From contig JAUXXQ010000122.1 in the NCBI GenBank assembly GCA_030684815.1, forward strand, positions 1-36,183: a stretch of 36,183 bases of DNA, written 5' to 3'. Positions 15,432-31,835 of the stretch are shown in pieces. The notes under the pieces were generated by a model. The model saw only the letters and a list, made by a program, of their open reading frames with translations, made no database searches and was not told the origin of the DNA. This DNA is from Methylobacter sp. GTDB lineage: Bacteria; Pseudomonadota; Gammaproteobacteria; Methylococcales; Methylomonadaceae. The translations under genes were made by a program, and so were the position numbers. Numbering within the stretch: the stretch's first letter is position 1; each line of letters opens with the position of its first letter.

Positions 15432-16832
15432 TCACAAATCAACTTTTAATTCAGCCGTCGTAAACTCATGCGGATTTAATTCCGACAACTGTGACCTAAC
15501 CCGCTGCCGCAACTCTTTTGCCGGACTCAACACATACGTTTCATAATCGGCATGATCAGGGTTTAACAACAACAATTTTGACAAAGCCGAGGCCAAACGA
15601 GTGACCGCTTTAACATCGCGACTATCGCCTTTTAACGTCGGACACTCACCAAAAGGAAACTCCAGATGGCTCACCGTCCGTAACTGATGCAAATATTCAC
15701 CGAACACATCCGCCTTAATACCCATGCCTTGCGCCGCGCAATCGGTGGTGAAGCGCGGAATTTTCCAACCGGGAATAATCCCGTGAAACCTATCCATCAG
15801 CGCAGAATCATGGAACATTTCCGGCAGATGCCGAATGTAATCAAGCTGTCGCGGCCGACCTTCGTATAAATCGATATTGGCTAAAATAATCAAACCACAT
15901 TCGCTGGTGATTTTTTTACCGCCCACACTAAATTGCCCCGACTCCAAATAATCTTTAAATTTAGCGTGAATATCATCCGCGCCTTTAAAAGTAATCGATT
16001 GGCCTTCATCCAGCACCAATAAATCATATTTGCCGCCGAGTAAACCGATTTCATTGGTGTTCAAATTCATAAACAACTGCGCCTGCGATAAGCCACCGCC
16101 GCTGTTTAACCACACATGACGGCTGAGATTCTGATAAATAAACGATTTACCGGTACCTTTAGGCGCAAGCTCCATTAGGTTCAAATTATTCTGCACTAAC
16201 GGCAACATGCGCAAAATAACGTTATTTTGTTGCTCTTCAGTATAGGCCGAAGGTTCGTAGCCCATCGTGCGCATTAACAAACAAATCCATTCGCGGGTAG
16301 TGAACTGTTCACGCGCCTTAATCAGTTGATCCAAGCGCACTTTTCCCGACTGCATCGGATTAAATTCAACCAATTCGATGACGTTATTTTTGCCATCCGA
16401 ATTAACAAATAAGCGCCCCGCGCCCCATTGCCCACCTTCCAACAAGGACTGATTTTTTTCTAATACCTCGCTGGTCACACTCGCATTACGTTCTTCCAAA
16501 CACGGAATGGTGAGCAGTTTTTTTCCTTTGCCAATATCAATGCGAACCTCAAATCGATCCAATAACACCACTGCCTCGCCTGAATATAAACGGTAATTAA
16601 TGGTTTCTTTTTCAATTTTTGACGGTAAATGCCGGCTCATAAACCCCGTCACATCGGCATAAATATCGGCATCGCTTTTGTTGGATTTTTGAAAACGAGA
16701 AATCAGCCATTCTTCAACAAAACTGGGGATAGTGCGTTTTTCGCGGATTTTTAACGACCGAACCAATGCTTTATCGATCACCAACTCACTGAATGCCGCA
16801 CTGATTTTTTCGTTCAATAACTCTTTATTCAA
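15432..16832 (-). CDS. brxL: BREX Lon-like ATPase BrxL, short form (SspH-like?)
   Basis: The 466-residue protein has a P-loop AAA+ core: PKGTGKSFIYQNLS at 224-237 and the Walker B strand LLVLDEGQ at 271-278. Around them are FMNLNTNEIGLLGGKYD and KDYLESGQFSVGGKKI, which match the BrxL core (GPRGTGKSH, then a DE strand, then MASGSFARG). BrxL of type I BREX is about 680 residues because a Lon-type protease domain follows. Here the chain ends about 190 residues after Walker B and I see no protease domain. BrxL binds DNA and is needed for phage restriction. It overlaps pglZ by four bases (ATGA). Type 4 loci end with this gene. Confidence 0.8.
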   Translation of the reverse strand: MNKELLNEKISAAFSELVIDKALVRSLKIREKRTIPSFVEEWLISRFQKSNKSDADIYADVTGFMSRHLPSKIEKETINYRLYSGEAVVLLDRFEVRIDIGKGKKLLTIPCLEERNASVTSEVLEKNQSLLEGGQWGAGRLFVNSDGKNNVIELVEFNPMQSGKVRLDQLIKAREQFTTREWICLLMRTMGYEPSAYTEEQQNNVILRMLPLVQNNLNLMELAPKGTGKSFIYQNLSRHVWLNSGGGLSQAQLFMNLNTNEIGLLGGKYDLLVLDEGQSITFKGADDIHAKFKDYLESGQFSVGGKKITSECGLIILANIDLYEGRPRQLDYIRHLPEMFHDSALMDRFHGIIPGWKIPRFTTDCAAQGMGIKADVFGEYLHQLRTVSHLEFPFGECPTLKGDSRDVKAVTRLASALSKLLLLNPDHADYETYVLSPAKELRQRVRSQLSELNPHEFTTAELKVDL

Positions 16833-19102
16833 AACATATCCTCAAAATTTTGTGTATCGCTATCTTTTTCAAGTAATGATGCAGGGAACTGTACAGATAG
16901 CAACTTTTGATTTTCTTCATGCGATTTAATGCCCGTGCCAGTGCTGTTATAAGAAAGCAAAAGCGTCATTTCTGTTAACCCTTCTTGATCCTGTTCCGAG
17001 CTAAATTTTAAAATTATACTTTGATGACTACCTGCGCGTAGGCTGTCAATAGAGCCTTTACCACAAAAAGGTGCGGCTAACGTTAGCTTGATGCTGTTAA
17101 CAGTTTCGCTGGCCATCAGATTTAATTCAAGTTGCCATTGCTTATGCCCTAATTTGATGCAGTTTTGTACAGACAAATCGACTTCCAGCGGCGTTTTACA
17201 AGGTGTTGGTGGTCGTGATGTTAAGGTAATCAGTGGAATCAACACCTCTTCCGGCGTTAAACCGCCATGTGTTAATAGCGCATTAGCGGTTAAGCGCACG
17301 CGTTTTTTCGGCACCGCATAATGATCAATTTTGACGAAATCCTCCGGCAAATCAACAGCTGAATTCAGTTTAAAGACCCGTTCTTTTATGTCACCGAACT
17401 GTTCTCCAGTGTACTGTTCTTGAGTGACCGTCATGCCGTGATCAGCGGTGATAAAAATGGCAATATCACGCCCCAAACTCATTGCGTCTCTTGTCCAACG
17501 TTGAATTGAGCTTGTTATTTGGCTGCTAATCGGCTTTAAATCAGCGCAATGTTTTTCAAAACTGACACATTCATGTAGGCGACCATCTAAACGATTTTCA
17601 AAAAATACCAGTAGGTTAGTATCGGCGTCTAAATGCTCACTTGATTCTTTCCAGCTACGCACTATTTTCAAGGCCTGTGGTGTAGGCAAAAAATGCTGAT
17701 AGCTTTGTCTAAGTGCAGCTTCTTGATCATTAGGTAATTGTGAAACCACTTTTCCTGTTAATACTGCCATTTTTCCAACTTCTGTTAGCGTCGGCAATGG
17801 CGCAAATAACACCTCCGAAAGCTGTGTAAGATGCTCTTGCTCGATCAGCGATTGTAATTCAGCTAAAACTACCGACTGATTTAATGCCGATAGCGCATCA
17901 ACCATCACCACAACTACTAAATAATCAGCCTTTAAAAAATCATGAATACGTTGCGAGCATTGTCGCCAATCAGCATTAGAGCGGGCAATTCGTGGGCTTT
18001 GCTCCAGCAACCAATCGGTAAAACTGCCATTAATCGATTCATCCAACGTTTGCTTATAGGAAAACGCGTGGCGGCAATAATCAAAATAACCTTCGCTCCA
18101 CGCCAAAACCGTTTCAACACTGGCCGATTGTTCGAGCAATGGATAAGAAACGCGGGTTAATTTCTTAGCGAGTGCCACCGCTTCAGGACTGGTAAAGATC
18201 GCCACTTGTTGCGCTAAAGTGTCGCTTATTAAACAAGGTGACAAGTCGATTAAATTATTCAACTCCGCCCATAATACCGGCCAATCCACTATGAATAAAT
18301 CGGCTAATGAATTTACCGGTACTTCGTTAGCCAATATTTTCCGGGTAATACTGTTTAACACGAATAAAAATTTTTCAACCAATGGTTGTCCGGCTGTTTC
18401 GGTTAGCGGCAACAAAGGTAGAGAAAATAACGGCGTAGGTAAAATTTGTGCAGGTAAAGCAATACTTAATTCATAGCGATTAATAATTCCTCGTAATTGA
18501 AAAAGGTGTTGCTGATAAGCAAGTTTTGTTAAAAACTCCTGGCAATTACCATACAGTAATAATTCAGTGATAAATAAGACAGCAGTGTCTTTAGCTATAT
18601 TTAAATCAAAGATAAGATGATTGAGTAGGCATTTTTTTAGGCTGTCAATAGCCAGTAACGACAAAAAAGCCGGGGATTGTTGATTTACTGCGCCAACAAA
18701 CGCGTAAAAATCTTGCCCTGAAATTAATTCATTCGCACAGATACTTAATAGCGTTTTTTCAAAGCATTCAAACTCGGTAAATACTTGCTGGCTTAATAAA
18801 TTTAACGCCACACACATGTCATTAGTCAGCCAATCGGGCACCGCGCTGTTAAGTTTTTCAGCGAGCAATAAGCGTGGAATTAATGGTTGCGTTAATAATA
18901 CGCCTCGCATACCTTCCAAATATTTAAAACGCTGATATAACGCCTCATTGCTTAATCGTACTCTGCATAAAGTAGGTGACTGATTACGCAGATGCTGAGT
19001 AATGCGTTGATGCGCCTCATTAACAGACGCCTCACAAGGTTCAACGACAAGTGCGTCAATAGAATCAATGCCAAAATAATCCAAAACTAATTGCACGGCC
19101 AT
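16829..19102 (-). CDS. pglZ: BREX phosphatase-like protein PglZ (SspG-like?)
   Basis: The protein has 757 residues. The alkaline-phosphatase-like PglZ core is in the second half: VVVMVDALSALN with D402, PLPTLTEVGKMAVLTG with the threonine region at 438-440, FITADHGMT with D554 and H555, and THGGLTPEEVLIPLI with H612, the usual end of the catalytic fold. The N-terminal 380 residues are helical and divergent. PglZ is the marker gene of BREX. Type I PglZ proteins are metal-dependent phosphatase or nuclease enzymes; the substrate in BREX is unsettled. The gene starts 2 bp after brxC ends and overlaps brxL by 4 bp, so brxC-pglZ-brxL is a tight unit. Confidence 0.88.
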   Translation of the reverse strand: MAVQLVLDYFGIDSIDALVVEPCEASVNEAHQRITQHLRNQSPTLCRVRLSNEALYQRFKYLEGMRGVLLTQPLIPRLLLAEKLNSAVPDWLTNDMCVALNLLSQQVFTEFECFEKTLLSICANELISGQDFYAFVGAVNQQSPAFLSLLAIDSLKKCLLNHLIFDLNIAKDTAVLFITELLLYGNCQEFLTKLAYQQHLFQLRGIINRYELSIALPAQILPTPLFSLPLLPLTETAGQPLVEKFLFVLNSITRKILANEVPVNSLADLFIVDWPVLWAELNNLIDLSPCLISDTLAQQVAIFTSPEAVALAKKLTRVSYPLLEQSASVETVLAWSEGYFDYCRHAFSYKQTLDESINGSFTDWLLEQSPRIARSNADWRQCSQRIHDFLKADYLVVVVMVDALSALNQSVVLAELQSLIEQEHLTQLSEVLFAPLPTLTEVGKMAVLTGKVVSQLPNDQEAALRQSYQHFLPTPQALKIVRSWKESSEHLDADTNLLVFFENRLDGRLHECVSFEKHCADLKPISSQITSSIQRWTRDAMSLGRDIAIFITADHGMTVTQEQYTGEQFGDIKERVFKLNSAVDLPEDFVKIDHYAVPKKRVRLTANALLTHGGLTPEEVLIPLITLTSRPPTPCKTPLEVDLSVQNCIKLGHKQWQLELNLMASETVNSIKLTLAAPFCGKGSIDSLRAGSHQSIILKFSSEQDQEGLTEMTLLLSYNSTGTGIKSHEENQKLLSVQFPASLLEKDSDTQNFEDMF

Positions 19103-19104
19103 AA

Positions 19105-22100
19105 CTAATCCTCATAGCTCAGCAAAATGGCGTGTAATGCCTCGCGTATTTCTTGCTTAGAAAGATTAGCTTGCTCAATGCAGGTGCTTAATTTACTGAT
19201 TAATATATCTTTAGTGTAAACCAGCGTGTCTGCTACTGCTAAGGGTTGATGGTAATACGTCGTTACAGGCTGTTGGTGATGCTCAATTAAACTTTCCAGC
19301 TTGCCTTTGCATTGCCCAATTTCAGTATCGGTACATTGGTCAAATGATTTATTTAACATGATCTCGGTGACTTGCTTAACATCAATATTAGCCATGTCAT
19401 CATGTTGCTCTAGTAATTCCCCAACCGCTTTAGCTTGTGGCGTAGCCTGATCATGATTTAAGCGGGCAACTAAGCGTGCTTTATCGTCAACATTTTGTGG
19501 ACAAACCTGCTGCAACGTTTGTTTTATTTCATGCTGTTTAATATCGCCTATTCGATCAAAATCATCCAACAACTCTTTTATCAAGGAGCGGGCTAATTCT
19601 GGAATATCCCCCGGTGTTTTATGTTCTAAACCCAAAAGGCTTAATAGAAAATCAGCAAAGTCTTGTGCGTTTTTAGTGGGCACAGCCTGTAAAAACTTAA
19701 CTAGCTCTTTAGGCTTATCCTGTAACTGATTTGAAAATTTAACCGCATCGGCTGTATTTTTGACAAACTCGCGCAGCTTTGCTGCGCATTCACTACCAAA
19801 TTCTTCTTGAGATTGCTCCTCATCCTTGCGCATCTTAAAATGCAGTCCAATCGCATACAGCATAGCGAATTGTCGAGGGGTAAATTCAACCAACTGAATA
19901 GAAAGTTTACTGTCAGCAATAAACGCCAGCGCTAAATTAGCAGCAAAATCAGTTTCAGTACCCGCATTTTTCCAGCGTAACCGTTTGACTTCATGGCGCA
20001 CCGCAACCGCAGCCAGTATCGCCAAACTACAAGCGGGAATACCATAAGGCGGCGCAATTAATTTTTCGCGTAATTCGGCAACTTGATAAGCCTTATCGCG
20101 CTTTTGTAACAAAGCCTTATGTAACAGAACTAAAACATCTTTAACTGCGCCGTCGGTTTCTTCAACCCTTTTAATGTCCCATTTATCCGGTTGACGCTGA
20201 ATAAATAAATGATTGGCACCGAGAACACCATCAATCAGTGCCGACCTTTCGCTGGTATCCTTATCTTCACCTAATAAATCATTGGTTTGATAAGTCGGAT
20301 TATCATCAAATTTAACAATACGTTCGATGATATTGCGCACCTTAATATTCCGCGCATAACTTTCATCATTCAGCTTATTCATATTCATGGCGCGAACAGG
20401 AATTTCTTTTGGGTATAACGCTTGAATATGTGTAGTTAAAATACCTCTAAATTCATACCAACTTTTACAGGCGATTGCTTGAGCAATACCCGCTTGCAAA
20501 ATTTCACTTTTACCGTTGGTTAAACCTTCACGCCCATACAAAACTTGCAATATAGATAACAAATCTTTGCGGGTTTTTTCCCACTTTGTCGTTAATTGTC
20601 GGCGTAAATCATCGGTGGCGGTTTTTTCTTTCAGCAATAACTTCAATGCTAAATAACGGCATAACAAACCACCTAATTTAAAGTCTTTACCGCCATAGTT
20701 AACCGATTCGGAACGTATGCCTTCAGCGGGCAACCAAAAATAAATATTAGCCGGGCTGGTTTCTTGAATACGCGCTTTAACCTGCGCGACCTCTTCAGTG
20801 TCTTTAGCTAACACGAGAAAAACTTGACCGCTTAATAACGGATCAGATAATTTAAGCGTATTTGTTATTGGCGGTGTTAATAAATCAACCGCATAAGCGC
20901 GGACAATACCGCAAGGCGACGGTTCTAGCTCATGCGTACCCAATACCGGAAATAAATCTTCCCGCATAGTCGGGTTTTCATTCAACAACGTTTCAGCGCT
21001 ACGTCCAGTAAAATAGCGTAATTTTTCATCAATCAAACCTTCGACATTCACCCCGGAATCGCCTAACAATGTCCATTGATGCGTTAAATCGCTTTTCCAG
21101 ATTAACTCCTCGGCTTTTAACCAAGCTAAATCAGTATGTAAGCGTTCGGCGGCACTGTTCGTTGGTTGCGTGTCATATAACGCACAGGCTAAAAATACTT
21201 CATTAGTTTGAAAGTCCCCGTCTAGTAATTCACTGAGCAATAACAGCTTTAACACATCCAGCTTGCCTTGCCTTTCATTCGCACTTAACTCAACAGGAAT
21301 TCTATTTTTTGCCCGTTGATAGCGCTCTAATTCATGTGCTTTTTTATCCTCAAGCGTTTCGCCGTAATAATCGACCAATTCAGGCAAGCGAATCAACTCC
21401 TGAGTGAATAAGGCTTGCTCATTAACGGTTTTACTCAGAATGGTATCCGCGTTAATTTTAAAAAACGTAAGCGCGGTACGATTAGCCTGAGCCATTTTTG
21501 ATAAAGCAAACAAGCCCGCCGCCATTACTGGGTGCAAAGGATAGATTTCCCCGCTCACGGCTGATAATTGTTGACCTAAAGATTTAAACAAAGGCAACGG
21601 ATTACACGCCGCCACTAATTGTTCTTGATTAGCTATCGACTGCTGCCAGTGTTGCTTGCCAAATTCCGTCCACGAACGCTGCATTCCGAGTAAATGATAA
21701 CCCTCACTTTCAGCCGCCGATAACTCAATTTTAAAATCCCTAAAACGGCCAAAAACAGTCTCTAAACGATTTTTTACCGATTCTTCACAATCTTTAGCAT
21801 ACTGAGAAAATGACTTATGCGTTAAGCCCATAAATATCGTATGTCCACGCGCCGGACTACACACTTTTTCGACAAATTCCTGCAGCTCAAAAATTTCTGT
21901 AACTACATTACGATGCGGATTACCGATTAAATCTTCCAGCGCCAAACCAAACTCATCCCAGACCACCACAATGCCGCCAAATTTATGGTTTTCAGCCAGG
22001 TTTTTACCGGCTTCAAAAAACGCATTAATGAAATTACTACCGCCTTCATTCGCAGGATTAAACGGCGCATCCTGACAAACTTCAATGTGCCAACGCTTAA

Positions 22101-22758
22101 ATAACGCTAACGCTACCGGCTGATGACTCTTTAAACCATCTACCATATCTTCAGTCGTCAAATAATGTTCAGCCAAGTGCCATTGCGATAAATCAGCACA
22201 AGCTAATTCCGGTGAACGGTTGACAATAGCGTCAAAACGTTTAGTGCAGACTTCATATTCCGTCGTTGGTAAAATATCCGCCGGATTTAAAGTAGGATGC
22301 CGCTCTAGCGCATCATATAAACCTTCGATTAACTTCGCTCCTAATGACGTCGTACCAGAACCGTATAACGACACCAGCAAATAAGGTAAGGCATCAACAT
22401 CATCAGCTGTTAAAAAAGTATTTTTTAAATTATCTGCAAGACTGGCTTCACCAAAATTGCGTAAACGCTCAAACAAATGTTCAAACTCACTTCCGCCACA
22501 GCCGTCACGTAATAATTGCGCTATCACCACCGCCGCATGGCTTTTCCCTGAGCCATAACTGCCGTGTATATTTAAGGCGCGTTGTTCCTGAGTCGCTTCA
22601 GGAAATACCGCCTTTTGTAAATGCGTTAATACCGCGACTGTCGCTTTAGTCGGGGCAAAGCGATCGACCAAATTATGATTACTTAAACTTTGCCCCACCA
22701 CAATGGCAGCGGGTGTTCCTGTGTTATTAATTTCAATAATATCATTTAATTGCGTCAT
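19105..22758 (-). CDS. brxC: BREX ATPase BrxC/PglY family (SspF-like?)
   Basis: The 1217-residue P-loop protein has Walker A GSYGSGKSH at 66-74 and a Walker B strand GGIVVVWDEFG at 261-271 (D268, E269). BrxC/PglY proteins are about 1200 residues with G-x-YGSGKTH near residue 60-70, and are large AAA-type ATPases needed for BREX function. The remainder is helical and has no further motif I recognise. ATG at 22758 lies 12 bp after a 163-codon gene and 2 bp before pglZ. It is clearly distinct from the second large ATPase (27493-30891), though the Walker A contexts are alike. Base composition is AT-richer than that second ATPase. Confidence 0.85.
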   Translation of the reverse strand: MTQLNDIIEINNTGTPAAIVVGQSLSNHNLVDRFAPTKATVAVLTHLQKAVFPEATQEQRALNIHGSYGSGKSHAAVVIAQLLRDGCGGSEFEHLFERLRNFGEASLADNLKNTFLTADDVDALPYLLVSLYGSGTTSLGAKLIEGLYDALERHPTLNPADILPTTEYEVCTKRFDAIVNRSPELACADLSQWHLAEHYLTTEDMVDGLKSHQPVALALFKRWHIEVCQDAPFNPANEGGSNFINAFFEAGKNLAENHKFGGIVVVWDEFGLALEDLIGNPHRNVVTEIFELQEFVEKVCSPARGHTIFMGLTHKSFSQYAKDCEESVKNRLETVFGRFRDFKIELSAAESEGYHLLGMQRSWTEFGKQHWQQSIANQEQLVAACNPLPLFKSLGQQLSAVSGEIYPLHPVMAAGLFALSKMAQANRTALTFFKINADTILSKTVNEQALFTQELIRLPELVDYYGETLEDKKAHELERYQRAKNRIPVELSANERQGKLDVLKLLLLSELLDGDFQTNEVFLACALYDTQPTNSAAERLHTDLAWLKAEELIWKSDLTHQWTLLGDSGVNVEGLIDEKLRYFTGRSAETLLNENPTMREDLFPVLGTHELEPSPCGIVRAYAVDLLTPPITNTLKLSDPLLSGQVFLVLAKDTEEVAQVKARIQETSPANIYFWLPAEGIRSESVNYGGKDFKLGGLLCRYLALKLLLKEKTATDDLRRQLTTKWEKTRKDLLSILQVLYGREGLTNGKSEILQAGIAQAIACKSWYEFRGILTTHIQALYPKEIPVRAMNMNKLNDESYARNIKVRNIIERIVKFDDNPTYQTNDLLGEDKDTSERSALIDGVLGANHLFIQRQPDKWDIKRVEETDGAVKDVLVLLHKALLQKRDKAYQVAELREKLIAPPYGIPACSLAILAAVAVRHEVKRLRWKNAGTETDFAANLALAFIADSKLSIQLVEFTPRQFAMLYAIGLHFKMRKDEEQSQEEFGSECAAKLREFVKNTADAVKFSNQLQDKPKELVKFLQAVPTKNAQDFADFLLSLLGLEHKTPGDIPELARSLIKELLDDFDRIGDIKQHEIKQTLQQVCPQNVDDKARLVARLNHDQATPQAKAVGELLEQHDDMANIDVKQVTEIMLNKSFDQCTDTEIGQCKGKLESLIEHHQQPVTTYYHQPLAVADTLVYTKDILISKLSTCIEQANLSKQEIREALHAILLSYED

Positions 22759-22770
22759 TATAATGTCCGG

Positions 22771-23262
22771 TTATAGTCGCGAAGTTTTAGTCGATACCCA
22801 CGCGGTTACTGCCGTAGAATCTAAAGGTTGCGGAGTGAAATAATGCTGGTTAATACTGGCAAAATCATTGCCTTCAGTAAAAATAACAATGACACAATGG
22901 CCGCCATGCCTTTCACTGAGTGTAGACCAAAAAGCTTGTTTTTCTAAAATAGGCCAATGCTGAAACCAATACTGTGGCTGTTGAATAATTAATCCCGGAT
23001 GCGGTGCATCAAAAACCTGATCAACAAACTGTTTACGGGAACACGATGAAGCAGGCGCTTGAGTGATGTTGGCTTGCTCGCCATTCCACAACGAATAAGC
23101 CGGTAATAGGCGCTGTAACGTGCCAGCGAGTTCATCCAATATCAGAACGTCTTTACTGGAAAATGCTAAATGTTGATAGCGGATAGTAGGCGCGTGGTAA
23201 TGATTTAACACGCCAACGAGTTGTTGTTCAAGCACGGTTTTAAGCAAGATTTCAGTCGTCAT
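22771..23262 (-). CDS. Unknown 163-residue protein upstream of brxC
   Basis: I start at the ATG of MTTEILLKTVLEQQ (23262), because GGTGGA lies about six bases upstream; the frame could extend to 23304 inside the toxin gene. No P-loop is present. Two blocks stand out: KDVLILDELAGTLQRLLPAY near 36-55, and PQYWFQHWPILEKQAFWSTLSERHGG followed by the hydrophobic strand CVIVIFTEGNDF. Position and size recall BrxF, the small gene before brxC in type 3 BREX, and the strand order may be a degenerate ATPase fold; that is only analogy. It overlaps the YoeB stop codon by 11 bp, and brxC starts 12 bp further on. Confidence 0.7.
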   Translation of the reverse strand: MTTEILLKTVLEQQLVGVLNHYHAPTIRYQHLAFSSKDVLILDELAGTLQRLLPAYSLWNGEQANITQAPASSCSRKQFVDQVFDAPHPGLIIQQPQYWFQHWPILEKQAFWSTLSERHGGHCVIVIFTEGNDFASINQHYFTPQPLDSTAVTAWVSTKTSRL

Positions 23263-23518
23263 AATGTCCACCGATAGCAAAAATAAAAATGGCTTGCTCA
23301 TCAAAGCGATAAATCAGCCTGTCTTTTTCAGACAATCGCCGCGACCATAATCCAGTGAGATGATGTTTAAGCGGTTCAGGCTTACCTAAACCATAGCGCG
23401 GGTCGTTTCTTAGCATTTCTTTTAAAATATGGCACAAACGCTCATGTTGTTTTTTATCTTTTTGTCTCAACGCTTCATACACTTCCCAGGTTTTACCTTC
23501 AAATACCAACGATCTCAT
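23252..23518 (-). CDS. yoeB: YoeB/Txe-type mRNA interferase toxin
   Basis: The 88-residue protein has the complete YoeB pattern: LVFEGKTWEVYEALRQKDKK, LCHILKEMLRNDPRYGLGKP, EPLKHHLTGLWSRRLSEKDR, LIYRF and the C-terminal IFAIGGHYDD. The catalytic E, R and H positions of the family (E in GKPEPLKH, R in WSRRLS, H and Y in GGHYD) are present. YoeB is an RNase that cleaves mRNA on the ribosome. The start overlaps the antitoxin gene by 20 bp, and the stop overlaps the next gene of the defence operon by 11 bp, so toxin and defence genes are translationally linked. Confidence 0.9.
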   Translation of the reverse strand: MRSLVFEGKTWEVYEALRQKDKKQHERLCHILKEMLRNDPRYGLGKPEPLKHHLTGLWSRRLSEKDRLIYRFDEQAIFIFAIGGHYDD

Positions 23519-23762
23519 TTAATTCCTCTGTAGTCGGTTGATAGCCTGTGTGTTGTTGGTGCGTTTTTTGAGATAAAGCAATTTGCTGCATTAATGTTTG
23601 GTTTTGCAAAATATAATGCGTTTCTTCGCTCTCTATTTCGTCAAAGTCGTCTTCAACAATAATCAAGACTTCCACTTTTTTACCTTTTAAAAAAGGTAAC
23701 GGTTGGCTTAAATTAAGTTGTTGCGGATTTTCAAGCGTGAGTATTTCTTTGTAAGCATACAT
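23499..23762 (-). CDS. Antitoxin of the YoeB pair
   Basis: The 87-residue protein precedes and overlaps the toxin. It starts MYAYKEILTLENPQQLNLSQ, has an alternating strand block FLKGKKVEVLIIVEDD, then a helical acidic tail (HYILQNQTLMQQIALSQ and further). It does not look like the YefM/Phd fold normally paired with YoeB, but rather like small AbrB/DUF2281-type antitoxins with a short N-terminal beta region and a C-terminal helix that would fill the toxin. A close paralogue without a toxin lies at 26432-26704. The gap to the upstream 449-residue gene is 44 bp. Confidence 0.78.
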   Translation of the reverse strand: MYAYKEILTLENPQQLNLSQPLPFLKGKKVEVLIIVEDDFDEIESEETHYILQNQTLMQQIALSQKTHQQHTGYQPTTEELNEIVGI

Positions 23763-23806
23763 AATCGATTCTCTGTGTTAAAAATGATGTCGTAAAGTCA
23801 ATGCTT

Positions 23807-25156
23807 TTACAGCCAAGTATCCTCTCCGCTTTGCAATAATAACAACACGGTTTCTCTTGGATTGCAGCGTTCAGTAAATGATACCGATTCTAAATTGACC
23901 GCATTAGTAAAACTAAAGTATTCTTTCCAATTATTGCTTTGTTCCATACGCCATATTTGTTTACGCAACTCTTCTGGTGAACAGCATAAAAAGTGCCCTA
24001 ATCCTGCCGCAATAATCTCAGAAAAATCTACCCCAGAGCGCATTTTATAACAATGAAAACGCATCATCGCGAGCGCATGAATAATAATTTCATCGGTTAA
24101 TTTAGGCGAACCTAAACGAATATGTATTTGATCCTCTGCTTTTCTAATTTCAATTAAGCCTAAGTCGGCTAAGGGACGGTCGTGTTCAAACATGCGCCTG
24201 ACGCTACTAATTAAACTTTCTAGCGTTGAATCTTTATAACTATCACCGTTATCACTGGTTAAGTTATTTTGTATTTTTGAAAAAAGTTGTTTTGAATTTA
24301 TCCAGTCTTTTGAAATTGTATCTAACTGTAAGAAAAAATTAGGATAAGGCTCGCTAACAGTTGAAAAGCAAGTTGATAAATGAAAAGCCCACCATGTAGA
24401 TGATTTATCTAAATTAGTATCATTACCCAAAATGGCGAAACCAAAATCAGTTAATTCATACTCTCTTGAATTCCGACCACCTTGTATAAGTTGAGATGCT
24501 ACCAACCAGCTTTTTATCGTTTTTAATCTATTGTCTCCTGCAATGAATTCACATCTAGCTCTACGCATATTTTGGCTAGAAAAAATTTCTCTGTCTGTTT
24601 TTATTGTTTTAAGTCCTTTGGTTATCCACCAGTGTGAAACAGGTTCGCCTTGGTTATTCATTAATGTCATACGTTTTACCCCATTAGTAGGATTATTTTT
24701 AAAATCTATTAGTTGAAAACTAGAATGAAACCTATTGTCAATGTATTTTTCAAGGATTATATTGTATATTTTTTCTATTAAATATTTATCAGAAAATAAC
24801 TCTTGATAAATTGGCTCTAAAAATCCGCCAGATATATTTTTTTCAATTAATTCTGATTTATATAAATCACCAGAACTTGTTCTTTTTAAAATATTGATTT
24901 TTGTTATTTCCCACACTTTATCATTTTCTAATCGCTTAAAAGCATAGTGAAAATTATGATTATTTTCATTGGGGAATAATTCTTTAAATGTAATGTTAAG
25001 TGCTGCATTTATCTCATTAAAAGAAATTAATCTTTCATTTCCTAAATAGCATTTTTTTAATGCATAAAGTAGCAATACAGGCTTATATAAATTTGGCTTC
25101 CCATTGTTTACTTTTACATTTATGTTGTTGAATACTTCAATCAGGTCATCTTCCAT
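23807..25156 (-). CDS. Putative DNA sulfur-binding domain fused to a DUF4007-like domain
   Basis: The protein has 449 residues. Residues about 1-105 read like the DNA sulfur-binding domain of ScoMcrA-type enzymes: NLYKPVLLLYALKKCYLGNE, ISFNEINAALNITFKELFP and then YAFKRLENDKVWEI, compared with the known pattern HKPLLLLxALGR, LSFxEVxxxLxxLLxxF, YPFWRLxNDGLWEV. Residues about 175-330 parallel the DUF4007 protein of this locus: ITKGLKTIK, IFSS, NRLKTIKSWLVASQLI, YELTDFGFAILG, LDKSSTWWAFHL and SVRRMFEHD. No HNH nuclease motif is visible. The ATG overlaps the sspD stop codon as TAATG, so the two are made together. I infer a phosphorothioate-reading partner of the modification or restriction complex. 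The gene is notably AT-rich. Confidence 0.65.
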   Translation of the reverse strand: MEDDLIEVFNNINVKVNNGKPNLYKPVLLLYALKKCYLGNERLISFNEINAALNITFKELFPNENNHNFHYAFKRLENDKVWEITKINILKRTSSGDLYKSELIEKNISGGFLEPIYQELFSDKYLIEKIYNIILEKYIDNRFHSSFQLIDFKNNPTNGVKRMTLMNNQGEPVSHWWITKGLKTIKTDREIFSSQNMRRARCEFIAGDNRLKTIKSWLVASQLIQGGRNSREYELTDFGFAILGNDTNLDKSSTWWAFHLSTCFSTVSEPYPNFFLQLDTISKDWINSKQLFSKIQNNLTSDNGDSYKDSTLESLISSVRRMFEHDRPLADLGLIEIRKAEDQIHIRLGSPKLTDEIIIHALAMMRFHCYKMRSGVDFSEIIAAGLGHFLCCSPEELRKQIWRMEQSNNWKEYFSFTNAVNLESVSFTERCNPRETVLLLLQSGEDTWL

Positions 25157-25947
25157 TATTTAAAACAAACCAAACATCCGTCGTCGTTATCTTCATCATC
25201 TGATAAAGCATCCATTAAATTACTCGCTTTTTTTACTTTATCTTGGCTTAAAGCAAACTGTGCTTTGATTTCATCTTTACGTGCAACCATTTCGTCTAAT
25301 GATTCATCTTGTGACCAAGTATGATTACGACCCAGATTTTTATGGTAAAGCTCGAACTGTCTTGCCTTTTCAAAATAATCAGGATGCCGTTCAGACAAAC
25401 CTATCCATTCTATTTTTCTTTGGTAAAAGCAAAAATAACAGCCTGATCGACTTCGCCATTCATAATATTTAGGTAATCCAAGTCCAGATTCATCTAAAAT
25501 ATTTTTTACATCATTAATATCTAAGCCATCCTCTTTAAAAGGATAAATAGCACTTATATTAGGTTTGGTTGAAATATAGCCTGTTCGATAAGGCTCATCT
25601 GCTCGAATGGCTACATAGCTAATTACCGGATCGTTACCAACAAACTGCTCAAATGGTTTTAGTTTCAAATTGATAGTACACCACCTCGAACGGGCAGTAG
25701 GTAAGAAATTGCCATTTAATTTCAAATAATGGTCAAATCCTTTGCCTGCATTTAAACGGACAATTGATTTGCCTAAATAATCCTCCATTAGATCAACAAA
25801 TTCTAATGTCTCAGGCAATTCCGCGCCGGTATCGGCAAAGAAATATTCCATGTTGGGTACTTTATCGCGCATATAAATCGCTAAGGCGGCGCTGTCTTTG
25901 CCGCCGGATATGCCTAATAAATGTCGAACCGGTTTTTGATTATTCAT
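25156..25947 (-). CDS. sspD: PAPS-reductase-like sulfur-transfer protein SspD/BrxP (DndC family)
   Basis: The 263-residue protein has the PP-loop SGGKDS at 14-19, which binds and splits ATP. Cysteines are C90 (SRWC), C170 and C173 (GCYFCFYQRK) and a terminal CLVC (C258, C261), suitable for an iron-sulfur cluster as in DndC and SspD. These proteins activate the DNA backbone for sulfur incorporation in phosphorothioation. In BREX nomenclature the same gene is brxP, the marker of type 4. It lies 29 bp after the DUF2442 gene and overlaps the next gene as TAATG. The sulfur donor, a cysteine desulfurase, is not in the window; a housekeeping IscS could serve. Confidence 0.85.
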   Translation of the reverse strand: MNNQKPVRHLLGISGGKDSAALAIYMRDKVPNMEYFFADTGAELPETLEFVDLMEDYLGKSIVRLNAGKGFDHYLKLNGNFLPTARSRWCTINLKLKPFEQFVGNDPVISYVAIRADEPYRTGYISTKPNISAIYPFKEDGLDINDVKNILDESGLGLPKYYEWRSRSGCYFCFYQRKIEWIGLSERHPDYFEKARQFELYHKNLGRNHTWSQDESLDEMVARKDEIKAQFALSQDKVKKASNLMDALSDDEDNDDGCLVCFK

Positions 25948-25976: not shown

Positions 25977-26237
25977 TTATAGAGTCCCTTGATAACTATC
26001 TGCGATTGGAAAACAAAGCTCATAATCATTCCAATCTATATCGCCATCGCGTAATGTGAAGTTTTTAAATGCAGCCAAGTCCAGATATTTTTTTAGCATT
26101 GGATTTTTAGCTTGATTTAAAAAACTTTCAAAGTCGATTACTTTTTTAGTCTTATCATTAAATTCAAATTCAATTTGATAATTTTTTAGATAACGAGCAG
26201 AAGTGATTTGAATATAGCGAGTCGCAACGGTATTCAT
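25977..26237 (-). CDS. DUF2442 family protein
   Basis: The 86-residue protein reads TSARYLKNYQIEFEFNDKTK, VIDFESFLNQ, NPMLKKYLDLAAFKNFTLRD and ends with DIDWNDYELCFPIADSY, the DUF2442 pattern. Such proteins are small, often next to DUF4160, and are suspected toxin-antitoxin partners. No DUF4160 gene is seen. Its first 16 bases, including the ATG, are repeated exactly at 27465-27480, just after the sspC stop codon. I infer that this gene once followed sspC directly and was separated by an insertion. Confidence 0.8.
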   Translation of the reverse strand: MNTVATRYIQITSARYLKNYQIEFEFNDKTKKVIDFESFLNQAKNPMLKKYLDLAAFKNFTLRDGDIDWNDYELCFPIADSYQGTL

Positions 26238-26240
26238 TAT
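26225..26240. repeat. 16-bp direct repeat flanking a 1.2-kb insertion, left copy
   Basis: CAACGGTATTCATTAT here is identical to 27465-27480. It includes the start codon of the DUF2442 gene. Everything between the copies is repeats, gene remnants and an orphan antitoxin. Confidence 0.75.
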
Positions 26241-26258
26241 TTAACCCTCTTGTTAATA

Positions 26259-26410
26259 CATCGTTCCCACGCTTCGGCGTGGGAATGCCGTTATGGACGC
26301 TCCGCGTCCCGTATCATTGCAATGACTATTTCCATCCAAAACAATCGCTCCTTTCGCAACGCTGGAGCGTTGCTGGATGCATTCCCACGCTGGAGCATGG
26401 GAACGATACA
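26259..26410. repeat. Palindromic repeat block (REP-like), copy 1
   Basis: The block consists of inverted units of the type ATCGTTCCCACGCTTCGGCG and TGGGAATGC, GACGCTCCGCGTCC, and AACGCTGGAGCGTTGCTGG, ending with GGAGCATGGGAACGAT. About 150 bp recur nearly unchanged at 27198-27349. Such G-x-GTGGGAACGAT palindromes are REP-type repeats that are often moved by REP-associated transposases. No gene is inside. Confidence 0.75.
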
Positions 26411-26431
26411 ATTTAATCATCTTGTTAAAAT

Positions 26432-26704
26432 TTATAAGGTCTCCAAACAGACTTCAATAAAAGGCCCATTAGCGCGTTCTTGAATTATCTTAGCATCTTC
26501 CAAATCTTCTACTGTTTGTTGTCGATGCGTTTGTTCTGATAAATTTATTTGCTGCATCAATACTTTATTTTGTAAAACATAATCAGTTTCATCTTCAGCA
26601 ATAACAAGTATTTCAACCTGCTTACCTTTTAAAAAAGGTAATGGATGATTTAGATTAATTTGTTGCGGATCATCGAGTATTATTATTTCTTTATAAACAT
26701 ACAT
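26432..26704 (-). CDS. Orphan antitoxin, paralogue of the YoeB-linked antitoxin
   Basis: The 90-residue protein starts MYVYKEIIILDDPQQINLNH and continues PLPFLKGKQVEILVIAEDE, very close to the protein at 23499-23762. The middle (YVLQNKVLMQQINLSEQTHR) also aligns. The C-terminus differs (ANGPFIEVCLETL). No toxin follows: 22 bp downstream the palindromic repeat block begins. Either the toxin was lost by the repeat insertion, or this copy neutralises toxins made elsewhere. It belongs to the inserted segment between sspC and the DUF2442 gene. Confidence 0.7.
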   Translation of the reverse strand: MYVYKEIIILDDPQQINLNHPLPFLKGKQVEILVIAEDETDYVLQNKVLMQQINLSEQTHRQQTVEDLEDAKIIQERANGPFIEVCLETL

Positions 26705-26846
26705 AATATGGTCTACTAGATTTAGTTAGGTCTAATACTATATCCACGATCTAAAATTTGATCCAAATGAAAATCAAATTGACCGCTCCAATAATTACGG
26801 TTATTTTTTTAACCTACAGCATTTTCAATTTAAATGAGTTACTAAC

Positions 26847-27194: not shown

Positions 27195-27197
27195 TTA

Positions 27198-27464
27198 CAT
27201 CGTTCCCACGCTCCGGCGTGGGAATGCAGTCATGGACGCTCCGCGTCCCGTATCATTGCAATGACTATTTCCATCCAAAACAATCGCTCCTTTCGCAACG
27301 CTGGAGCGTTGCTGGATGCATTCCCACGCCGGAGCATGGGAACGATAAACGCCGGAGCGTGGGAACGATACAAACAATCGCTCCTTTCGCAACGCTGGAG
27401 CGTTGTTGGATGCATTCCCACGCCGGAGCGTGGGAACGATAAACGCTGGAGCGTGGGAACGATA
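27198..27464. repeat. Palindromic repeat block (REP-like), copy 2, expanded
   Basis: The first 150 bp match 26259-26410. After GGAGCATGGGAACGATAAAC the units GCCGGAGCGTGGGAACGAT and CAATCGCTCCTTTCGCAACG repeat again, so the block has grown by internal duplication to about 267 bp. It carries no real gene, although several frames are open because the repeats are GC-rich and multiples of simple units. Confidence 0.75.
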
Positions 27465-27480
27465 CAACGGTATTCATTAT
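27465..27480. repeat. 16-bp direct repeat flanking a 1.2-kb insertion, right copy
   Basis: Identical to 26225-26240. On the minus strand it reads ATAATGAATACCGTTG, the start of a DUF2442 gene, 13 bp after the sspC stop codon with AAGGTG before it. Confidence 0.75.
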
Positions 27481-27492: not shown

Positions 27493-30400
27493 TTAATTCA
27501 TTTCACTGAGTAACTGCGAAATAATGGCGAGTTGTAATTGTTTATCAGCATTTTTAAATTCTGGCGGCAGTGTATTGACTATGGTTTTGGCCTTTTTTAT
27601 CAGATCATCATTTAAATAGGCGATTTGGTCGTTTTCGCCGTTTTGGCTGACCACTCGAAATAAGGTGGCTTGGCCTTTGGCGGTTGCTTGATGCGAGTGG
27701 ACTAAGGCCAGTTGCCGCAGCCGTTCGCTAAATTCAATCAGGCGGTATTCGGCGTCCAGGCTGTTAGTGAGCAGCCATTTATCCGGCGGCAATTTGCCCA
27801 AAAAGGCGGCGACGGATTCAAGCCAGGCGGTGTCGGTTTCTTTGTTGTTTTGCAGGCGCAAGATAAAGGCTACAAGCCCTTGTTTGTCTACGGTGTAATG
27901 TTCTAAGCCGGCATATTTTTGGCTGATGCGGGTTCTCAGTTCATTCAGGCTTATTTCGGCGGGTTCTTTTAAGGCGGCGGCGAGTTTTTGCCGAAAGTCT
28001 TTCAGCAGGTTCGGGTAGGCTTGGTTAAGCCGTTTTAAATGGCCAACCAGTGCATTTAAAAATTCGCCAGGGTCATTGTCTGTTAGGTCGGTGCCGAGGT
28101 AGGCGGGATAACCGCAGGCTTCGGGCAGGGTTTTAAATAGTAAGGTCATCGGGCTTTGTGTACTTTGGAAGGCGTCACGCACGGCAATGGTTTGTTTATC
28201 GAGTTTTTTTGTCGCCAGGGTGTAGGCGGGCAGTTGGGCGATAAATTTGGCTAAGGGTTTGACGATGTCGAGCAAGGTGCTGTGTTCGGGCACTTTGCCG
28301 ATGAGTTTTTCCAGGTAGCGGTTGAACAGGTCGGCTCTGATGCCGCTAAAGTCAAAGGCTTCAAGGGTAAACAGTTCGGGCCGTTTGGCTAAAATTTCAA
28401 ACAGTTCCTGGCTGACGACTGGGCAAAATACGCCGCTTTCGTACAATGCCAGCGAGCGTTGGTTGGCTAGGTAATAGGCGACAAACAATAATGATGACAC
28501 GCCTTTTTGTACGCCGTAGGGCGGTTTTTCCATCAGTGCGTACAGTTCGGTTAATTTTTTCGGCGCGCGGCTGTCGGCTAAAAATTGGCGGATGCCGCGC
28601 CAGACCTTGGCGAAGTGGTAGCGGTTGTTGTCGCTCGGATTGACCAGTTGCCAAACGCCGTTGTGTTCGATATGCAGGCCGGGTTCTTTAAATACGGCGC
28701 GGTAGATGGTTTTTTCGGCGGGGTATTTGTCGGGGGCAAAGCCTAAATCTTCTACATGGGCGTGGGTTAATAAGGCGGCAATCAGTTTGTTTTTGGCGCC
28801 ATTGGCTTGGCCGGATACTTTGTTGCGGTTGACCAGTTCGTTTTTAATTAACGGCGCTTGGTCATAAACGTTTTCCAGCACTTCGGACAGTTGATGTTGC
28901 AGTTGACGCTGGCCGGTTAAGGTTAAAGGTTTGCCTTGCCAGTACCATGTGTTTGTTTCGGGGTGATCCAAATAGCGGCTTAATAGTTCGGCTTCGGTTT
29001 GTTTGCTGGTGGCTAGCCGGTCTTTTAATTCGCGCTGTGCGACCGGGTCGGCTTTTATTTCGGCGCGTTCAGTTTGTATGTTTTCTAAGGCAATGGTTTC
29101 GGCGACGACGGCTTTAAGTTGCGCGGTGTTATCGCAGAGTACATAGAGTGTTAAGGCGTTGCTGTGTGTGGTGACTTGGCTGTTAAATAGCGCGGTATCT
29201 TCTTGGTTTTCGGATAAAAAGAACAGGATTCTGGGTTGGTCGCTGTGTTGATAAAAGTTTTCTTTGGTATTTGCGTCGATGTAAAAAAGGCTAAAAACGC
29301 GCAGAGTTCCGTGTTGTATGGAATATTTTCTGGCGACAATGGGCGGCAATTTGTTACGGCGGGTGAGTGTTTCGGCTAGGTTGAACCGGCCTAGCTGTTG
29401 CACGGTTTCTTCTACGGCGGCCTCTAAATCAAAATCGCTGCCTTCCCAAATCCGGTATTCGGAACTGAAGTGCCGGTAGTTGATGATGGCTTTCTTTTGT
29501 AAATTGGCCAGCCCTTGCTCGACATTGACGCTTGCCGGGAAACACAGTTTTAAACAGGCCAAGCTGGCTTTAAGCCCGGCTTGGTTGCCGATGATGTTAA
29601 ACAGGCCGATGGTTTTTAGCAGCTGTATTTCTGCTTCTTCGGCATCGCCTAAGCGGTCTAATGCGGTCATGACTTCGGCCCAACGCCGGTGGGTCAGGTG
29701 GTCGGTGGTGGCTAAGGGTTGGTTGTGAATAAAATATTCAAAAATTTCCCACGGTAGCACCCAGTCGCCGATTTTTTGTAGCCGCTGAATGCCGTGTTTA
29801 AAACCAAAATATTCTTGGCTGCCCAAATAGCTGAATAAGGTTCTTTCGTTTTGCGCGACTTTTTGGCACAGCGTCGGCAAAACCAGCGCGGCTAGTGGAT
29901 GTAGCGGATAGCATTGGCTTAAAATTTCGCTGGCGGGTTCGGCGCTCAGGCCGGGCAGTAAGGCGTTTTGCCGGGCTAATACGCTAATAATGTCTTTGGT
30001 TTGGCGGTTTATGTCGCGCTGTTGCGCCGGTGTCAGGCGGTTACGGAAGGCGGCCGCGACAACGCGTAAGGTTTGTTCGGCGGATTCAAGGAAGGGAATG
30101 CTCTCGAAACGCCCTTGCACTTTGCTCCATTCATTTTTCAGCGCAGTGCTTAAACCTTTTGCGTATTGCTCAAACGCTTGGTGCATCAGCACCACTAACA
30201 GAATGTTGGCGTCGCTGTCTTGATAAGCCAGCTCTGCCAGTTCTTGCAGTAAAAAAATGTCGTTGGCGCCGGAATGGCGGGCTTCGTATTCTAAAAATTT
30301 GCCCAGTTCGTCAATGATAATGAGCAGGCCTTTGCCTGATTTATGGCTGACGGCTTGTTGGAGCTTTTTTAGCAAGCCGATGATTTCGCTAGTGCTTGGC

Positions 30401-30891
30401 GGCTGTTGTCTGGCTTGGTCAAGGGTTTGAACAATGGCGGGCGCACGTCCTTTGTCCCAATAGCGAACAGCGGCTTGATACAGCGCATCGACAAAGCGCT
30501 GGCTTAATGATTCGGGGCTACCGGTTAACAATACGATGCAATAAGCATTGCTGCCGCTGGTGTGGGCGATGATTTTTTCAGCTACCGGGGCGTTATGGCG
30601 CTTTAAAATAGTTTCAGCAACGAGGTTGTTTTGACGCTCTTGGTCTTCCAGCAAATGCGCTAAAAACACGGCAAAGGATGATTTTCCTGAACCATAAGGG
30701 CCGATTAATGACCACGCTCTGGGCGCTGATTTTTGGCTGAAGGTGTCGGCAATCCGGTCTAGCGTTTGAATGGCGCGTGAGGTGGGGATATAGGCGTTGA
30801 GGATGGCGGAAGAATCGGCATCGCGTTCAAGGTTAATCGAGCGGGTGTAATGGGTGTCCAGTTGTATGTTGTCCATGTCGTCAGTCTTCAT
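27493..30891 (-). CDS. sspC: SspC-like large P-loop ATPase
   Basis: The 1132-residue protein has Walker A GPYGSGKSS at 64-72 and a Walker B strand GLLIIIDELGKFLEYE near 188-203 (D194, E195). The N-terminus (THYTRSINLERDADSSAILN, YIPTSRAIQTLDRI) is typical of the ATPase that follows the DUF4007 gene in Ssp phosphorothioation loci, where it is required for nicking-coupled sulfur insertion. It is related to BrxC only in the ATPase core. ATG at 30891 overlaps the sspB stop codon by four bases (ATGA). A second ATG lies five codons inside. The gene is visibly GC-richer than sspD and the sulfur-binding gene, which suggests the modules were joined from different sources. Confidence 0.75.
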   Translation of the reverse strand: MKTDDMDNIQLDTHYTRSINLERDADSSAILNAYIPTSRAIQTLDRIADTFSQKSAPRAWSLIGPYGSGKSSFAVFLAHLLEDQERQNNLVAETILKRHNAPVAEKIIAHTSGSNAYCIVLLTGSPESLSQRFVDALYQAAVRYWDKGRAPAIVQTLDQARQQPPSTSEIIGLLKKLQQAVSHKSGKGLLIIIDELGKFLEYEARHSGANDIFLLQELAELAYQDSDANILLVVLMHQAFEQYAKGLSTALKNEWSKVQGRFESIPFLESAEQTLRVVAAAFRNRLTPAQQRDINRQTKDIISVLARQNALLPGLSAEPASEILSQCYPLHPLAALVLPTLCQKVAQNERTLFSYLGSQEYFGFKHGIQRLQKIGDWVLPWEIFEYFIHNQPLATTDHLTHRRWAEVMTALDRLGDAEEAEIQLLKTIGLFNIIGNQAGLKASLACLKLCFPASVNVEQGLANLQKKAIINYRHFSSEYRIWEGSDFDLEAAVEETVQQLGRFNLAETLTRRNKLPPIVARKYSIQHGTLRVFSLFYIDANTKENFYQHSDQPRILFFLSENQEDTALFNSQVTTHSNALTLYVLCDNTAQLKAVVAETIALENIQTERAEIKADPVAQRELKDRLATSKQTEAELLSRYLDHPETNTWYWQGKPLTLTGQRQLQHQLSEVLENVYDQAPLIKNELVNRNKVSGQANGAKNKLIAALLTHAHVEDLGFAPDKYPAEKTIYRAVFKEPGLHIEHNGVWQLVNPSDNNRYHFAKVWRGIRQFLADSRAPKKLTELYALMEKPPYGVQKGVSSLLFVAYYLANQRSLALYESGVFCPVVSQELFEILAKRPELFTLEAFDFSGIRADLFNRYLEKLIGKVPEHSTLLDIVKPLAKFIAQLPAYTLATKKLDKQTIAVRDAFQSTQSPMTLLFKTLPEACGYPAYLGTDLTDNDPGEFLNALVGHLKRLNQAYPNLLKDFRQKLAAALKEPAEISLNELRTRISQKYAGLEHYTVDKQGLVAFILRLQNNKETDTAWLESVAAFLGKLPPDKWLLTNSLDAEYRLIEFSERLRQLALVHSHQATAKGQATLFRVVSQNGENDQIAYLNDDLIKKAKTIVNTLPPEFKNADKQLQLAIISQLLSEMN

Positions 30892-31835
30892 GCTTGAGGT
30901 TGGTAATAGTGGCGCAAAAAGTCTAACGAGGCCATGTTGTCGTTGAGTCTGGCGAGCTGATGAAGGCCGGCGGTTTCGTTGAGCTGAAAATGTGCGGGAT
31001 AGGCGGCGACCAGGTTTTCCAGTTTTGCCAGCAATGCGTTTTCTGTCAACCGAAACACGCTGCCGATAGCCACGTGCTGTTTTTGGCCGTACATCAATTC
31101 GTTTATCGGCATTATTTGTATGCGGCTCAGGTTGAAAACTTCGTTAATGGCATAGCCGATGACGCTGATCGGCAGATGCGACCGCAAGGCGGATGCTGAA
31201 CGGTAAAAATGGGCATGTTCGCTGGCGCTGACTAATTTTAATGAGCTTAACGGGGCGTCCAGACCTTCTTCAAGTTCAGCGTGTGCGTTGAGCTTGGGCG
31301 GGCTGTACATGCGCAAAATCATGGCTATTTCTTGCCTGACGGTTTTTTCTGAATGTTTGCCGGATAAATTGCTGTTAACAAAATCGGCCAAAGCGTCGGC
31401 GGCTTCCTCGCTGGTAAATTCGGGCTTATGGAAGCTGTTGAAAAACCAATACCAAGCGGTGGCTAATTCTGAATGGGTCGCAATTAGCCAGTGCAGTAGC
31501 CAAATAGTCGCTTCGTCTTCAAGATAAGGATCCCAACCGGTTTTTTCAGCAAAAATGGCTTTGCCGAGTTCGGTGGCAAGCAAGCCGTCATCGGCGTCTT
31601 TGAGCATCGTGCTGGCGCGCAACCAATATTTGATGGCATGTACCATGTTTTTACCAACGCCAAGTTCAATGGTGGCTTCGTCTGATGAAAAAACCGCAGG
31701 GTTGCGTTCAAATGCTTGAAAGCCTTTGCTTAGCCAAGCGTAACGCAGGGCAAAAGTTTCATGGCGGCCGAATGAGGCTTTTTTAGGATTAAAAAATTTA
31801 AGTGAACTGTCCATGTTTTCAATATAAGTAGTCAT
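30888..31835 (-). CDS. sspB: DUF4007 family protein, SspB-like
   Basis: The 315-residue protein has the DUF4007 pattern: SFGRHETFALRYAWLSKGFQ near 21-40, VGKNMVHAIKYWLRASTML, then LLATELGKAIF, DEATIWLLHWLIA and AWYWFFNSF. DUF4007 proteins open Ssp-type phosphorothioation operons and, as I recall from work on Vibrio SspB, act as the DNA nickase that opens the backbone for sulfur insertion. The N-terminal half is probably a winged-helix DNA-binding region (GVGKNMVHAIKYWL). It is the first gene of the island, with paired palindromes in its leader, and is coupled by ATGA to sspC. A seven-codon-shorter start is possible. Confidence 0.78.
   Translation of the reverse strand: MTTYIENMDSSLKFFNPKKASFGRHETFALRYAWLSKGFQAFERNPAVFSSDEATIELGVGKNMVHAIKYWLRASTMLKDADDGLLATELGKAIFAEKTGWDPYLEDEATIWLLHWLIATHSELATAWYWFFNSFHKPEFTSEEAADALADFVNSNLSGKHSEKTVRQEIAMILRMYSPPKLNAHAELEEGLDAPLSSLKLVSASEHAHFYRSASALRSHLPISVIGYAINEVFNLSRIQIMPINELMYGQKQHVAIGSVFRLTENALLAKLENLVAAYPAHFQLNETAGLHQLARLNDNMASLDFLRHYYQPQA

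Follow-up and report, generated by a model that had tools for sequence, protein, structure and literature searches.

A sulfur-binding domain fused to a DUF4007 protein in a type-4-BREX-like phosphorothioation cassette of Methylobacter sp.

The fusion gene and the closest described systems

Proteins of the DUF4007 family are known from defence systems close to the locus described here, a cassette in a 36,183-nt stretch of DNA from Methylobacter sp. (contig JAUXXQ010000122.1 of assembly GCA_030684815.1; hereafter the window) in which a single gene joins a sulfur-binding domain (SBD) to a DUF4007 half. In the SspABCD system of phosphorothioate (PT) modification, the DUF4007 protein SspB (PDB 6juf and 6lb9) is reported as a nickase (PMC9240713). 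In an operon of the bacteriophage exclusion (BREX) type, DUF4007 was described as a BrxA-like, tripartite (winged) helix-turn-helix DNA-binding module (PMC12839542), and SspB and the SBD have both been argued to be winged-helix assemblies (PMC10853773). SBDs almost exclusively carry a C-terminal HNH domain (PMC7470945), and a further paper argues that an SBD-HNH enzyme and a writer of its own specificity should not be found together (PMC7461809). The literature that we read gives no settled account of how systems of the type-4 BREX and Ssp kinds keep the writing of the sulfur mark apart from acting on it.

The fusion gene lies on the minus strand at 23807..25156 and encodes 449 aa, with the SBD in residues 1-146 (24719..25156, minus strand) and the DUF4007 half at 23810..24670 (minus strand). 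A previous reading of the window (below, the sequence-only reading) had proposed such a fusion inside a PT operon, overlapping sspD as TAATG, and had expected structural matches of the N-terminus to the sulfur-binding fold and of the C-terminal half to DUF4007. The fusion is real, the TAATG overlap joins sspD to it, and both structural matches were found. The DUF4007 half matches PF13182 at 73 bits against a curated cut-off of 27, has the SspB fold and ends in a conserved ...DTWL. The N-terminal domain has the SBD fold; a profile search against the PDB gave E 1e-8, and phmmer with the single protein gave only E 0.16, which is weak alone. The match of the fusion protein to NF045808 spans only positions 2-145 of 284, and a search for HNH in the C-terminal half, which is DUF4007, gave no match. 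We also considered that the SBD might be a chance motif and rejected this on the profile matches and the fold. The fusion is one frame in nine genomes, and the most distant of the eight aligned is 43% identical to the focal protein.

The architecture is not known to have been described before. Searches on SBD fusions, BREX with SBD, SspF and methanotroph phosphorothioation gave no description of an SBD-DUF4007 protein in the literature covered (titles, abstract starts and passages, mostly without subscription papers, preprints and supplements). The architecture is real and well supported, a variant of the type-4-BREX-like or Ssp kind, and the mechanism proposed below is a reasoned model.

Compared with SspB, the focal DUF4007 differs in conserved positions (25 of 63 changed), in its ...DTWL end, in its fused SBD and in its lack of co-divergence with sspB. 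Type-4 BREX shares with the window a phosphoadenosine phosphosulfate (PAPS) reductase, DUF4007, BrxC, PglZ (below cut-offs here) and BrxL in one locus. However, the DUF4007-PAPS reductase fusion, reported there as frequent and not universal, is replaced here by separate sspB and sspD genes, and the single set of DUF4007 and BrxC that we read from the component list is replaced by two of each; one of the two DUF4007 genes carries an SBD and neither is fused to sspD (compare PMC12839542). Unlike the SBD-HNH endonucleases ScoMcrA, SprMcrA and EcoWI (NF045808), the fusion has no HNH match, sits inside a PT operon and has a Tyr/Ala pocket. SspFGH is similar in that the SspF homologues of the seven loci fetched through their SBD start with an SBD that belongs to one or other of the two pocket classes seen here, but SspF is a STAND-type NTPase, and SspG and SspH are not BrxC, PglZ or BrxL. 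SspE likewise couples a PT sensor to an effector in an Ssp operon, but there sensor, NTPase and HNH nickase form one chain with a different, hydrophobic pocket.

Affiliation of the fusion gene within the cassette

The order on the minus strand is sspB, sspC, sspD, the fusion gene, orf177, brxC2, pglZ and brxL. The cassette holds two DUF4007 proteins and two ATPases of the BrxC/SspC type, and both DUF4007 matches of the genome (4.29 Mb, 235 contigs) lie in the window. The modification arm contains the DUF4007 protein SspB (30888..31835; PF13182, E 2.3e-79; 6juf, E 1.4e-31) and the BrxC-like ATPase SspC (27493..30891; PADLOC SspC, E 0), followed by the PAPS-reductase-type sulfurtransferase SspD (25156..25947; PADLOC SspD, E 1.4e-109). 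Beyond the fusion gene, orf177 (22771..23304) encodes about 160 aa from a likely later ATG and, with its predicted P-loop/AAA-like fold, is a candidate BrxB equivalent. It is followed by brxC2 (19105..22758), encoding the second BrxC/SspC-like ATPase of 1217 aa (PADLOC SspC, E 6e-46; BrxC, E 4.6e-12), by the gene of a PglZ-like effector (16829..19102; PF08665, E 1.7e-4, and BREX_PglZ_4, E 1.4e-7, both below cut-off) and by brxL (15432..16832; TIGR02688 with 377 bits, cut-off 329).

We measured co-divergence as the correlation of pairwise protein distances (Mantel tests), related sequences being treated without kinship correction. sspB and sspC co-diverge (r 0.96, n 18), as does orf177 with brxC2 and pglZ (r 0.89-0.95). 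The focal DUF4007 co-diverges with orf177 (0.68), brxC2 (0.74), pglZ (0.72) and brxL (0.60), and shows no co-divergence with sspB (r -0.07) or sspC (r 0.18, p 0.18). The sequence-only reading had offered two roles for the gene. A link to BrxC-PglZ-BrxL is supported by these values. Directing modification of the other strand is not, because the gene co-diverges with the restriction genes and not with sspB and sspC, and because a DUF4007 of the focal type was found in none of the seven fetched sspFGH-type loci. The SBD co-diverges with the DUF4007 half (r 0.81) and with sspD (r 0.70), and sspD, SBD and DUF4007 form a middle group between two blocks. The genes of the cassette evolve together in blocks, each of which has a DUF4007 protein and a BrxC-type ATPase to itself. 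There is also a gradient within the focal gene, in which residues 161-320 track the SBD and sspD (r 0.56-0.72) and residues 376-449 track brxC2 (r 0.93) and pglZ (r 0.89). Such a gradient could mean that the C-terminal part serves for docking and the N-terminal part for recognition, or it could come from simple recombination among neighbouring genes.

In order to compare the DUF4007 half with SspB, we took the 63 positions with a conservation of 94% or more among 19 SspB proteins and examined them in 26 aligned copies of the focal type. In all 26 copies, 25 of the 63 positions are altered, including H25, R31, D107 (to K), E108 (to S) and R262 (to C). The earlier description of this half as a copy of the presumed nickase family holds for the fold. 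Judging by the residue changes, loss of nicking is likely, and on balance we take the DUF4007 half to be a targeting adaptor that resembles BrxA and serves the restriction arm, and not a second modification nickase.

Sulfur pocket, distribution and junction start

The sulfur pocket of ScoMcrA is formed by H116, R117, Y164, P165 and A168, and the change P165N abolished its PT binding (PMC6224610). In the alignment these residues correspond to Y24, K25, Y71, A72 and R75 of the focal SBD, and the loop S94-S95-G96-D97 stands at the base-contact position. Of the pocket residues that the sequence-only reading had proposed to look for, those at K25 and Y71 are retained, but H116 and P165 are replaced by Y24 and A72. 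PT is a putative ligand, unproven because of this Tyr and Ala. Positions 24 and 72 are both readable in 21 rows from the fetched loci; ten of these have H24 with P72, eleven have Y24 with A72, and none has another pair. The base-contact loop mostly switches along with this pair, and K25 (R117) and P26 are retained in every readable row. SprMcrA, whose structure was solved with PT-DNA, is mixed, with Tyr at the H116 position and Pro at the P165 position. The ratio of nonsynonymous to synonymous substitution rates of the SBD is 0.18-0.27 in five pairs, indicating purifying selection; for residues 321-449 it could be computed in one of the five. The Y-A class pairs with 'NEGEP' or 'NQGEP' N-termini of DUF4007 and the H-P class with 'GNQxF'-like ones in 13 of 13 readable family pairs, a count that excludes Candidatus Venteria ishoeyi, whose SBD sits on another protein.

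The fusion protein has matches in 34 of the 237 genomes of its own family at E 1e-8. A GTDB-based contig scan with two short peptide patterns, which distant fusions may escape, gave 26 loci. Twenty of them belong to Methylococcales or Methylococcaceae bacteria, named methanotroph genera and symbionts, including Methylotuvimicrobium buryatense 5G (order Methylococcales); the others are four labelled 'uncultured proteobacterium', one Candidatus Venteria ishoeyi (Thiotrichales) and one Photorhabdus, the last being an SBD-HNH enzyme. The cassette occurs mainly in relatives from methanotrophs. Among 398 genomes sampled from the phylum, five matched, and the fusion is present in the genome of the window only and absent from the other 397; NF045808 has matches in 65 of the 398, most covering the HNH half only. 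The 369 class genomes searched gave a DUF4007 match in 13; the SBD shares its frame in two, and both of these belong to the focal family. There was no match in plasmids at E 1e-5 or in phages at E 1e-3, and of 32 pattern stretches in viral contigs none was confirmed. In the 20 cassette genomes, sspD was always found (truncated in M. buryatense and G404), and sspC was found in the 19 other than G574, in G536 as a degraded copy.

The sequence-only reading had proposed a search for the same pair of domains in other genomes, and the pair does recur there. SBD and DUF4007 share one frame in the window, M. buryatense, L031, L032, L035, L036, L037, L043 and L054 (the last cut by the contig end), and L034 is a tenth fused gene with a stop further on. 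In L033, L042 and L050 the SBD is encoded beside the DUF4007 gene as a gene of its own, and in one of the split forms the two parts are separated by just one in-frame stop. It is broken or interrupted, with the DUF4007 frame open, in L045, L046 and L048; L052 is also labelled broken, but its contig end may explain this. In ten loci the SBD is absent from the stretch covered (L038, L039, L040, L041, L044, L047, L049, L051, L053 and L055). We searched eight of these ten genomes with NF045808 at E 1e-5, a search that also missed the interrupted SBD of G508, several genomes being 73-87% complete. There was no match in G406, G536, G559, G566, G574, G577 and G599, and in G582 one match elsewhere in the genome covers most of the profile. 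The SBD is not essential, because ten loci keep DUF4007 without it and seven of the eight searched genomes lack a match. On the DUF4007 tree the SBD-absent state needs seven changes, six of them forced by well-supported branches (L046, a near copy of L045, was omitted from both trees). The sequence before the start of L049 still resembles the linker of L037, which points to loss of the SBD in this locus. Because the fusion protein or parts of it served as queries for all loci, the survey covers brx cassettes with this DUF4007 and sspFGH loci with an SBD. In one SBD-less locus, a GmrSD_N-type protein and a Ser/Thr kinase are encoded between sspD and the DUF4007 gene (L053:10417-12601).

The SBD also occurs on other proteins. 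Seven loci of the sspF/sspG/sspH type (five from the focal family, two from the same class) have SspF homologues that begin with an SBD (L010:11308-13680, L012:12622-15036, L058:9729-12071, L059, L061, L062 and L063), which is so by construction, the loci having been fetched through the SBD. NF045808 was confirmed on the three SspF-borne SBDs tested. sspC and sspD were seen just before sspF in six of the seven; the contig of L062 begins at sspF, with sspBCD outside the view. The PADLOC SspF models leave roughly the first 194 residues of the L058 protein uncovered, and with them the SBD, so the SBD looks like an addition to SspF. On the SBD tree the partner label needs six changes, at least two of them forced by starred branches, and partner labels showed no significant clustering. 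In Candidatus Venteria ishoeyi an SBD-HNH enzyme is encoded between sspC and sspD (L087:8303-9184), and DUF4007 is without SBD. A further divergent DUF4007-like protein follows the HerA/FtsK gene in four sspFGH-type loci (L011:1597-2490, L058:19013-19885, L061:19192-19899 and L063:19011-19883), whose effector modules thus seem to have their own DUF4007 as well. That the restriction genes of the window are themselves SspFGH was rejected, as SspFGH are not BrxC, PglZ or BrxL according to PMC8092258 and to our searches; queries from the C-terminal part of SspF, SspG and SspH (L010-L012) had no match in the window.

At the junction, the DUF4007 half has a conserved internal start codon, M163, with purine-rich sequence upstream. 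The ten fused genes retain ATG (nine) or GTG (one) exactly at the start position of the unfused genes. Pairing with the 16S tail upstream of this start averages -4.67 kcal/mol in fused genes, compared with -4.84 in 14 unfused copies (SBD absent, split or broken) and -0.86 kcal/mol at 57 other internal ATGs (junction start versus other internal ATGs, p 2e-4, with related sequences that are not independent draws); L035 is an exception with -0.9. Because start codon and ribosome-binding-like sequence are conserved, two products are predicted, with and without the SBD, and a short form of about 287 residues lacking the SBD is likely made by internal translation.

Proposed function, alternatives and neighbouring features

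We consider it fairly probable that the product of the fusion gene is the adaptor which brings the restriction arm of a BREX-type-4-like PT defence system to its DNA targets, with the SBD as PT reader. Judging by their families, SspB, SspC and SspD together with a host cysteine desulfurase would place the sulfur mark on host DNA. The restriction arm of orf177, BrxC2, PglZ and BrxL would need a separate DNA-binding subunit, and the DUF4007 half, a BrxA-like relative of SspB, would be that subunit, its C-terminal part presumably docking to BrxC2/PglZ. The SBD on its flexible linker would sense the PT mark of its own operon while the DUF4007 half contacts the neighbouring sequence, and the action of PglZ and BrxL would then depend on sulfur at the site. 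We lean slightly towards bound PT as a mark of self over bound PT as a licence for attack. The SBD would be a modulator and not the sole sensor, because it is repeatedly absent while the rest stays open. With a sulfur-reader fold on the restriction-side adaptor, systems of this kind could have a means of inspecting the mark ahead of any action.

Several points weigh against this adaptor reading. Two key pocket residues are replaced in the focal SBD, and ten family loci have the DUF4007 without SBD. The focal DUF4007 tracks sspD, a modification gene, as strongly as the restriction genes (r 0.70, n 24), the SBD shows no clear tracking of sspB (r 0.23, p 0.08), and recombination between neighbours could yield the gradient within the gene. 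Of the 63 positions conserved in SspB, 13 are retained in at least 24 of the 26 copies, D102 and H115 among them. The PglZ assignment lies below curated cut-offs, and the DUF4007 of L040 has no brx-type gene in the following 9.5 kb. The 29 of 29 count of loci is partly by construction, the loci having been found with the fusion protein, and the 29 include near copies (L045/L046), one-genome pairs (L034/L050 and L035/L065) and fragments.

The same adaptor could act with the opposite sign, as a variant compatible with the reading above: host PT would activate the complex, unmodified invader DNA would be cut, and the complex would stay silent without PT. We hold this to be quite possible. SspE works by licensing (PMC13251355, PMC9646914), and in M. 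buryatense 5G sspD is interrupted by an IS66-type element (L084:7496-9983) while the fusion gene, orf177, brxC2, pglZ and brxL are open. Because of this interruption, there are hints that the restriction arm may be tolerated without PT, but this is a single genome, whose IS66-type element could have arrived recently or whose restriction arm could be silent. Moreover, SspFGH harms cells that lack PT and was likened to unrestrained DndFGH (PMC8092258), and SBD-less cassettes persist, so licensing would not be by the SBD alone. It is rather unlikely, in our judgement, that the focal SBD has ceased to read sulfur and that its Tyr/Ala class is a plain DNA-binding winged helix adding affinity or another specificity. 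The joint replacement at H116 and P165 in 11 of 21 readable rows, the effect of P165N in ScoMcrA and the recurrent absence of the domain would agree with this, but K25 and P26 are retained in all readable rows, the domain is under purifying selection, SspF homologues in PT operons carry the Tyr/Ala class too (L058, L059), and in SprMcrA, which was solved with PT-DNA, Tyr likewise stands at the H116 position, albeit with Pro at the P165 position.

That the fusion protein belongs to the modification arm, as a second SspB that would find hemi-modified sites through its SBD and have sulfur placed on the opposite strand or at another motif, appears improbable. The gene follows sspD with the TAATG overlap, SBD and DUF4007 each co-diverge with sspD (0.70), the N-terminal segments most, the fold is that of SspB, and D102 and H115 of SspB are retained in 26 of 26 copies. 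Nevertheless, co-divergence with sspB and sspC is missing, 25 of 63 SspB-conserved positions are altered in every copy, the seven sspFGH-type loci do without the gene and ten loci keep DUF4007 without the SBD. A functionless fusion, arising by chance read-through of neighbouring genes and fixed by drift, is very improbable. Split, fused, broken and absent states do interchange on the tree, and one split form has just a lone in-frame stop between its parts, but the single frame persists in nine genomes down to 43% identity, the SBD is constrained, and SBD class and DUF4007 N-terminal class pair without exception, though shared descent or linkage could give the same.

Beyond the adaptor reading, we tentatively suggest that the SBD is a movable sulfur-reader cassette, gained or lost at whichever effector gene follows sspD (the BrxA-like adaptor or SspF). 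The internal start would give subunits with and without the SBD, mixed complexes would set the dependence on the mark, and the Y-A pocket may read an undescribed PT context or backbone state. The natural variants with and without the reader, and the fused form in Methylotuvimicrobium buryatense 5G, make mark-reading directly testable.

Some further features lie between and beside the genes of the cassette. Between the fusion gene and orf177 lies a gene for a YoeB-type toxin (PF06769, E 1.8e-21), preceded by a small open reading frame (23255-23777). Small open reading frames lie between sspC and sspD (25980-27467), and one of them is by eye similar to the C-terminus of DUF4351-type proteins encoded at the equivalent site in L009, L031, L032 and L054 (the DUF4351 search covered L009). 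The same interval contains a 20-bp inverted repeat at 26867-26914. A nucleotidyltransferase of the MNT kind (Polbeta family, E 1.7e-16) is encoded directly after brxL at 14666-15109.
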